Assembly (NCBI GenBank): GCA_008080515.1
Contig: VIKH01000028.1
Span: forward strand, 2,959 to 38,995
Reading direction: 5' to 3'
Source: Gallionellaceae bacterium
GTDB lineage: Bacteria; Pseudomonadota; Gammaproteobacteria; Burkholderiales; Gallionellaceae
Length of the DNA: 36,037 bases
Each line of letters starts with the position of its first letter. Positions within the stretch are counted from its first letter, which is position 1. The translations under genes and the position numbers were made by a program. Below, piece by piece: positions 12,402 to 24,486 of this stretch. The notes under the pieces are model-generated. The model was not told where the DNA came from, did no database searches, and saw only the letters and a list, made by a program, of their open reading frames with translations.

Positions 12402-13530
12402 ATGGCAAAGAGCAAATTTGAGCGGACGAAGCCGCACGTAAACGTGGGGACGATCGGGCGGCGGCGAAGCCAAGGCCTACGACCAGATTGACGCGGCGCC
12501 GGAAGAAAAGGCGCGCGGCATCACCATCAACACCGCGCACGTCGAATACGAGACGGCGAACCGGCACTACGCCCACGTGGACTGTCCGGGGCACGCCGAC
12601 TACATCAAGAACATGATCACCGGCGCGGCGCAGATGGACGGCGCCATCCTCGTCGTATCCGCCGCCGACGGCCCCATGCCGCAGACGCGCGAGCACATCC
12701 TGCTGGCGCGCCAGGTCGGCGTACCCTACATCGTCGTCTTCATGAACAAGGCCGACATGGTGGACGACGCCGAACTGCTGGAACTCGTCGAAATGGAAGT
12801 GCGCGAGCTGCTCACCAAATACGAGTTCCCCGGCGATGACACCCCCATCGTCATCGGCAGCGCCCTCAAGGCCCTGCAGGGCGACCAGAGCGAACTGGGC
12901 GAGCCCGCCATCTTCCGTCTGGCCGAAGCGCTGGACACCTACATCCCCGAGCCCAAGCGCGCGCTGGACGGCGCCTTCCTGATGCCCGTCGAAGACGTCT
13001 TCTCCATCTCCGGGCGCGGCACCGTCGTGACCGGTCGCGTCGAGCGCGGCATCGTCAAAGTGGGCGAGGAAATCGAAATCGTGGGCCTCAAGCCCACCCT
13101 CAAGACCACCTGCACCGGCGTCGAAATGTTCCGCAAGCTGCTTGACCAGGGCCAGGCGGGCGACAACGTCGGCGTGCTGCTGCGCGGCACCAAGCGCGAA
13201 GAAGTCGAGCGCGGCCAGGTGCTGGCCAAGCCCGGCTCCATCACCCCGCACACCAAATTTACCGCCGAGATCTACGTTCTTTCCAAGGACGAGGGCGGCC
13301 GCCACACCCCGTTCTTCCAGGGCTACCGCCCGCAGTTCTACTTCCGCACCACCGACGTGACCGGGGCGGTGGAGCTGGCGGCGGGCACCGAGATGGTGAT
13401 GCCCGGGGACAACGTGTCGGTGACGGTGAGCCTGATCGCCCCGATCGCGATGGAAGAAGGGCTGCGCTTCGCGATCCGCGAAGGCGGTCGCACCGTCGGC
13501 GCGGGCGTGGTGGCGAAGATCATCGAGTAA
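12402..13530 (+). pseudogene. tuf: Elongation factor Tu gene with 62-nt deletion removing the P-loop
   Basis: The start ([19 protein letters not shown]) and everything from [20 protein letters not shown] to the C-terminal [10 protein letters not shown] are normal EF-Tu. Between them, codon GGG 12456-12458 is followed by one base and then GGC 12460, where the family has about 21 residues including HVDHGKTT (G1/P-loop). The remaining 1129 nt plus 62 gives 1191 nt, exactly a 396-residue EF-Tu. Reading from the ATG, the frame shift runs into TGA 12489-12491. DCPGHADY and NKADM are intact downstream. The product could not bind GTP. A second tuf copy near the upstream secE-nusG-rplKAJL region is common in this class, making an assembly artefact plausible. 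Confidence 0.93.
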
Positions 13531-13618
13531 AGCAGTCGTTAGATGCCGGACGTTAGTCGTTAGTAAAGGCGAAACCCGCGTAGCGGACAACGCCAACTGG
13601 CGACTAAAAGCTGAATAA
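13531..13618 (+). repeat. Imperfect palindromic intergenic repeat, copy 1
   Basis: This spacer after tuf contains CGTTAG/GTTAGT words on the left, a central CCGC-GTA-GCGG hairpin within CCGCGTAGCGGACAA (13576-13590), and inverted ACT-type words on the right (GGCGACTAAAAGCTGAAT). The 15-nt core recurs exactly at 14095-14109 after rpsJ, with similarly arranged flanks. This suggests a dispersed intergenic repeat. No transposase is associated. Confidence 0.6.
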
Positions 13619-13741: not shown

Positions 13742-14053
13742 ATGCAAAGCCAAAAAATCCGCATCCGCCTGAAAGCCTTCGATTACCACCAGATAGACCA
13801 GTCCGCGTTGCGGATAGTGGATACCGCAAAGCGCACTGGCGCCGTGGTAAGAGGCCCGATTCCGCTGCCAACCAAGATCGAGCGGTTCGACGTGCTGCGT
13901 TCTCCGCATGTCAACAAGACATCGCGTGACCAGTTCGAAATCCGCACGCACTTGCGCATGATGGATATTGTTGACCCCACTGAAAAGACCGTGGATGCAT
14001 TGATGAAACTGGATTTACCCGCAGGCGTGGATGTGGTAATCAAGTTGCAGTAG
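13742..14053 (+). CDS. rpsJ: Ribosomal protein S10 (NusE)
   Basis: A complete 103-residue protein. ATG 13742 ([17 protein letters not shown]) was chosen because it matches the family N-terminus; the frame is open 24 codons further upstream, but that extension is unlike S10. The [20 protein letters not shown] loop near residues 37-56 is diagnostic. S10 assembles into the 30S head and also acts as NusE in antitermination complexes. First gene of the S10 operon, followed by a repeat-filled gap before rplC. Confidence 0.97.
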
Positions 14054-14055
14054 TA

Positions 14056-14147
14056 GATCAGTTGTTAGGCGTTAGACGTAAGTTAAAGCAGGCTCCGCGT
14101 AGCGGACAAGATTAACTAATGACTAGCGGCTAACGACCAGCAACTGA
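14056..14147 (+). repeat. Imperfect palindromic intergenic repeat, copy 2
   Basis: The left arm CAGTTGTTAGGCGTTAGAC is roughly mirrored by the right arm, which ends in GGCTAACGACCAGCAACTG. The centre is a TCCGC-GTA-GCGGA hairpin. The 15-nt core CCGCGTAGCGGACAA (14095-14109) is identical to the one after tuf. Long cruciform-like symmetry plus repetition at a second intergenic site suggests a family of noncoding repeats spread in this genome. Confidence 0.65.
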
Positions 14148-23088: not shown

Positions 23089-24486
23089 TTGGGCGTTGCG
23101 GACAACAAGGTTGCGAGCAAGGGCAAATACGGTGATTTGAGCCGTCGGCTCTGGTTCCTGTTGGGCGCGTTAGTGGTATATCGCATCGGGGCGCATATTC
23201 CGGTGCCGGGCATAGATGCAGGGGTGCTTGCCGATCTGTTCAAGTCGCAGAAAGGTGGAATTCTTGGCATGTTCAACATGTTCTCCGGTGGCGCCTTATC
23301 GCGCTTTACGATTTTCGCGCTGGGGATCATGCCGTACATCTCTGCTTCGATCATCATGCAGCTCGCAACTATCGCGGTGCCGCATCTCGAACAGTTGAAA
23401 AAGGAAGGCGAAGCCGGGCGGCGCAAGATTACTCAATACACCCGCTATGGCACCTTGGTGCTGGCGTTGTTTCAGGCGTTTGGAATTTCGGCGGCGCTGC
23501 AGGCGCAGCCTGGCCTGGTGCCAAACCCGGGGCCGATGTTCCAGTTGACTTCAGTCATTACGCTGGTTACCGGTACGCTGTTCCTGATGTGGTTGGGCGA
23601 GCAGATTACAGAACGCGGCTTGGGCAATGGTATTTCGCTGATTATTTTTGCCGGTATTGCGGCAGGATTGCCCAGCGCAATAGGAAGCACGCTGGAATTG
23701 ACTCGCACTGGTGCCTTTTCTATTCCGCTGGTGCTGTTCCTGTTTTTTGGGGCGATTGCGGTGACGGCTTTGGTGGTATTTGTCGAGCGGGGCCAGCGAA
23801 AAATACTGGTGAACTACGCCAAGCGGCAAGTAGGCAACAAGGTGTACGGCGGGCAAAGTTCCCACCTTCCGCTGAAGTTGAATATGTCGGGCGTGATCCC
23901 GCCGATTTTTGCATCCAGCATTATTTTGTTCCCGGCGACGCTGGCGGGCTGGTTTGGTAGCGGGGCGGGAATGAATTGGTTGAGGGATATCAGCGATAAA
24001 CTGTCTCCCGGCCAGCCGATTTACGTGTTGTTATATGCGGCGGCGATTATCTTCTTCTGTTTTTTTTATACGGCGCTGGTGTTTAGCCCGAAAGACACGG
24101 CTGACAACCTGAAGAAGAGCGGTGCGTTCCTGCCGGGAATTCGCCCGGGAGAACAGACTGCACGCTATGTCGAGAAAGTCATGCTGCGGCTGACGCTGGT
24201 CGGTGCGGTGTACGTGACGCTGGTGTGTTTGGTGCCGGAATTTCTGGTGGTTAAGTGGAATGTGCCTTTTTATTTCGGGGGCACATCGCTACTGATCATC
24301 GTGGTGGTAACGATGGACTTTATGGCTCAAGTGCAATCCTACATGATGTCGCACCAGTACGAGAGCTTGTTGAAGAAGGCCAATTTTAAAGGTGGGTTTG
24401 CTCGCATTCTCCCAGGGGATAAGGTGACGGTCGAGATGACGCCATACGACTTGACCAAAGGGCGTATCGTGTTTCGCGCCAAGTAA
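23089..24486 (+). CDS. secY: SecY translocon channel fused in frame to the C-terminal 27 residues of IF1
   Basis: I chose TTG 23089 as start because AAGG lies just upstream and it gives the family-like [20 protein letters not shown]. Residues 1 to about 438 are SecY: ten hydrophobic segments, the first with [10 protein letters not shown] after it, and conserved [20 protein letters not shown] and [18 protein letters not shown]. SecY forms the inner-membrane channel with SecE and SecG. The normal end KKANFKGG is then followed, without a stop, by [20 protein letters not shown] and RIVFRAK, which is the end of translation factor IF1. Family length is about 440; here it is 465. The tail would be cytosolic. 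Probably an artefact or a recent deletion. Confidence 0.93.
24403..24486 (+). pseudogene. infA: Remnant of infA (IF1), last 27 codons, joined to secY
   Basis: Codon 24403 corresponds to Arg46 of the 72-residue IF1. The sequence from there to the TAA matches the IF1 C-terminus ([20 protein letters not shown] then RIVFRAK). The first 45 codons, including the start, are absent. infA normally sits between secY and rpmJ in beta-proteobacteria, exactly this place. IF1 is essential, so a live copy must exist elsewhere, or this junction is not real. Confidence 0.9.

Follow-up and report, generated by a model that had tools for sequence, protein, structure and literature searches.

Does this bacterium make a SecY protein that ends in the tail of IF1, or has the DNA joining the two genes been lost from its assembly? 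The question is raised by positions 23089-24486 (+) of the window, which is the whole stretch of 36,037 nucleotides analysed here. As the earlier note had described, these positions form one open frame, running from TTG to TAA and encoding 465 amino acids, with no stop where secY ends. If true, such a fusion would link translation initiation with the protein export channel. Judged by comparison of genome sequences, the SecY-IF1 chimera is almost certainly an assembly artefact, arising most likely from scaffolding.

The frame consists of two unequal parts. The secY part (23089..24405, +) has a complete coding region of 439 amino acids from the TTG and lacks a stop codon, as delimited by the TIGR00967 profile and the proteins of sister genomes. 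Its score against TIGR00967 (SecY, NCBIfam) is 441.5 bits, compared with a cut-off of 253.6, over profile positions 2-414 of 414, which places it in the SecY family. The infA part (24406..24486, +) is a 3’ remnant that comprises codons 47-72 and the stop, namely the last 26 residues of IF1. It reaches 44.3 bits against TIGR00008 (infA, NCBIfam), below the cut-off of 61.15, and covers only positions 42-68 of the 69-position profile, so that it does not qualify as a member of the IF-1 family. Directly downstream lies an intact rpmJ for ribosomal protein L36 (24556..24672, +; TIGR01022, 70.4 bits, positions 1-37 of 37), and rpsM, also intact by NCBIfam, is the next gene after it.

The window belongs to contig C26 of a draft assembly (G000; 2.91 Mb, 183 contigs, 90.49% complete). 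It was compared with two other genomes of the genus, here called the sisters (G001 and G002; the completeness of G002 is given as 100). In both sisters, secY ends in GGFAR-TGA, the TGA overlaps the ATG of infA, and IF1 has 72 residues. At the junction in the window (24401..24406, +), 140 bp of both sisters are absent, and the breakpoint shows 3-4 bases of homology; this net loss was obtained separately against contig 67 of G001 and contig 20 of G002. The missing 140 bp correspond to the overlap of the secY stop and the infA start (TGATG) together with infA codons 1-46. A join that remains in frame is a 1-in-3 outcome for a random loss. The possibility that the 140 bp had been dropped as a segment common to several species was considered and rejected; its k-mers are no more widely shared than those of its flanks.

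These comparisons alter several details of the first description. An IF1 tail is indeed present, with 26 residues and with codons 1-46 lost, not the 27 residues and 45 codons first counted; the discrepancy arises because R46 of infA coincides with the last R of SecY. SecY had been taken to end at KKANFKGG, and its own C-terminus in fact extends to GGFAR, as in both sister proteins. The secY stop is missing as claimed, and no intergenic gap was lost with it, since the sister TGA overlaps the infA ATG and leaves none to lose.

No precedent for the fusion was found among related loci. The sample contained 110 loci: 30 from a set of 61 genomes, and the 80 best out of 581 or more (L036 and L071 denote one locus entered twice). 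SecY terminates at its own stop in 110/110, and a fusion occurs in 0/110. IF1 beside SecY is complete in 77 of these loci, a partial match in 3 and not found nearby in 30; the one-base overlap of TGATG type joins secY and infA in 22 of the 110. Ca. Ferrigenium straubiae, at 91%, and a Gallionella sp., at 90%, supply the nearest named SecY loci among those 80. Among the matches listed, long open frames surround infA in G134 (581 codons), G090 (499) and G185 (313). They were rejected as precedents: in all three SecY has its own stop and the long frame does not share its reading frame, and in G134 and G090 infA is read in another frame. The long frames of L149 (G134) and L150 (G090) extend across secY in a different frame. 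When the junction region was searched against plasmids, 15 records matched in part, none of them spanning 80% of the query. In the literature, the excerpted text of PMC9514032 describes a "gene fusion" cassette that contains secY, not infA.

A genuine fusion would need a separate, intact infA to supply the function of IF1, and a search for one had been proposed. None was found in G000 (183 contigs, 90.49% complete) besides the remnant, either by the family search or by a protein search at E<=10. IF1 scores above the cut-off in 57 of the 61 genomes and is without any match in 3; across the order, the corresponding figures are 287 of 300 and 12, G000 being included in both totals. Among the high-quality genomes of the order, 4 of 270 are without an IF1 match. 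In both sets (61 and 300), G000 is the only genome with just a below-cut-off match. The IF1 search was positive in 10 of 14 control genomes and negative in Corynebacterium glutamicum; because the match is missing in some control genomes, a negative result does not prove that IF1 is absent. PMC11660809 terms infA essential for viability in E. coli, citing earlier work.

These results bear on the first alternative: a real deletion, of recent date, that left secY joined to the 3’ end of infA, with an intact infA in sequence missing from the assembly. In its favour, SecY is complete and the frame has no stop. G001 carries a second infA away from secY (L045, contig C53, 4253-4459), and G000 is only 90.5% complete. 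Against it, G002 has one copy only, and a search of G000 for the neighbourhood of the second infA of G001, with 40 of 125 candidates scored, recovered only short repeats and the far end of that neighbourhood. In L045, positions ~1072-1184 form a short dispersed repeat that matches many G000 contigs and makes up most of the 43 neighbourhood matches. The remnant itself also speaks against a deletion. Over the 27 retained infA codons, stop included, there are 14 synonymous and 1 nonsynonymous differences from G001, and 9 and 1 from G002. With these ratios (14:1 and 9:1), the remnant looks like a sequence that evolved as IF1, and it shows no sign of relaxed constraint. A real deletion of this kind is thus very unlikely, and it would account for one locus only.

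Other loci in the same assembly are affected. The earlier note had suspected a second junction artefact in the window, and this is borne out by tuf, the gene of EF-Tu (12402..13530, +). At a blunt junction between 12458 and 12459, 62 bp coding for the P-loop region are absent and the frame is shifted, so that residues 1-20 of the profile are matched in one frame and 37-394 in another. The GHVDHGKTT motif of the P-loop is gone from this gene. No intact tuf was found in G000, a 90.49% complete assembly. In the sisters tuf is also poorly assembled, as fragments at contig ends in G001 and with a frame-broken end in G002; therefore the tuf junction, taken by itself, does not set G000 apart, and tuf is difficult to assemble. 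Viability would not be expected of a cell that lacked infA and had this frameshifted tuf as its sole copy. Downstream of tuf, two copies of a 56-nt element, 71% alike and with the core CCGCGTAGCGGACAA, were observed at 13551-13606 and 14070-14125, flanking rpsJ (13742-14053).

The comparison was extended to 352,696 bases of G000 (8,292 of them in all-N contigs) and 545,933 sister bases, of which 81,785 were comparable. A break was counted as blunt when its offset was between -15 and 8 bases at one edge and between 30 and 400 at the other. The count excludes an 837-bp break in contig C57, breaks where sequence is unmatched on each of the two sides, and seven gaps of 20-36 bases within alignments. 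Over this comparable length, eight blunt losses of 62-140 bp are seen in G000; 7 of them cut genes, and the homology at their breakpoints is 0-4 bases. Besides infA (140 bp) and tuf (62 bp), they affect cysC (65 bp; L163, contig C10, 7605), tRNA-Gln (72 bp; L163, 12918), an efflux periplasmic adaptor (63 bp; L194, C52, 9867), tktA (90 bp; L195, C55, 9276), the nusA-infB spacer (65 bp; L195, 18021) and lepA (109 bp; L198, C158, 9729). The genes cysC, tktA, lepA (the end-of-contig part, by best match) and the adaptor were named by NCBIfam from the sister genes, and the nusA-infB spacer from reading of translations and search results. The adaptor was not accepted as macA, as it scored 78.6 bits compared with a cut-off of 342.

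The losses in tuf, cysC and lepA are out of frame, and those in tktA and the adaptor are in frame, the latter near the end of the gene. For tRNA-Gln, ARAGORN detects the gene in the sister stretch and no tRNA in that of G000, where the 5’ end of the gene is lost. By source, two losses fall in C26 (30,434 comparable bases), two in C1-C20 (20,533) and four in chosen contigs (30,818). The contigs C1-C20 were taken regardless of content, and their losses are those in cysC and tRNA-Gln; the chosen contigs (C52, C55, C57, C93, C158, C169 and C172) had been named by earlier searches and are biased towards translation GTPase genes. The reverse comparison gave 3 blunt gaps in the sisters relative to G000, all between genes as read from translations. 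As a control, G001 was compared with G002, and a single blunt gap was found in 37,144 comparable bases, also between genes as read from translations. The losses in the adaptor and in the nusA-infB spacer could be natural, and real deletions can likewise show 0-4 bases of homology. Junctions like that in infA are present in unrelated conserved genes of G000 (tuf, lepA, cysC, tktA and tRNA-Gln). These equally blunt losses support the artefact reading of the secY-infA junction, and one deletion at secY-infA leaves them unexplained.

The N runs of G000 suggest at which step the bases may have been lost. Runs of 2, 19, 30 and 88 N in the sampled part of G000 suggest that its contigs had been scaffolded; some of these N could be masking. 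One N run (49 N) also occurs in G002. The 19-N run of G000 (L039, contig C26, 2940-2958) lies just before base 1 of the window and interrupts rplJ. Its edges overlap by ~4 bases, so the size of the gap is wrong there.

A minor strain, or damaged or chimeric sample DNA, might also have supplied a deleted variant that the assembler then took up. Blunt junctions without N would look alike in that case. Such an origin would require several independent variants in unrelated conserved genes, and the N run in rplJ, whose size is wrong, points instead to the joining step; we consider it more improbable still than the real deletion. A natural SecY that displays a C-terminal portion of IF1 on the cytosolic side of the translocon, in a bacterium whose own IF1 has moved or been replaced, is equally implausible, and a real chimera gains no support from a genome with no other IF1 found, from related loci with 0/110 fused, or from blunt losses in other conserved genes.

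The assembly artefact remains the preferred explanation, and scaffolding would be its most likely cause. A contig that stops within the final codons of secY may have been abutted to a contig starting near infA codon 47, with the ~140 bp between them lost. The other joins would similarly have been given a zero gap where 60-140 bp are missing, and the secY-infA join would have fallen in frame by chance (1 in 3). The living population presumably retains an intact infA. The organism, a betaproteobacterium near Ferrigenium and Gallionella, most likely has the order secY-infA-rpmJ with the TGA/ATG overlap and a full-length IF1. The locus also serves as a warning: blunt losses of 60-140 bp occur in conserved genes of G000, and where such a loss falls in frame by chance, it mimics a new fusion protein. 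Claims of fusion or gene loss from such drafts require read support.

Two known systems may be compared with this locus. In Gallionella-like betaproteobacteria the order is secY-infA-rpmJ-rpsM, and the infA remnant, rpmJ and rpsM follow in the same order here; the nearest loci also share the SecY C-terminus KKANFKGG(F/L)AR. The locus differs from theirs in that 140 bp are absent, no stop follows SecY, and infA is reduced to codons 47-72. Junction errors in draft assemblies are the second, and are known as a general kind. G000 resembles them in its several blunt losses of tens to hundreds of bases in conserved genes and in its short N runs; the difference is that the secY-infA join is in frame, and so passes as an intact fusion gene.
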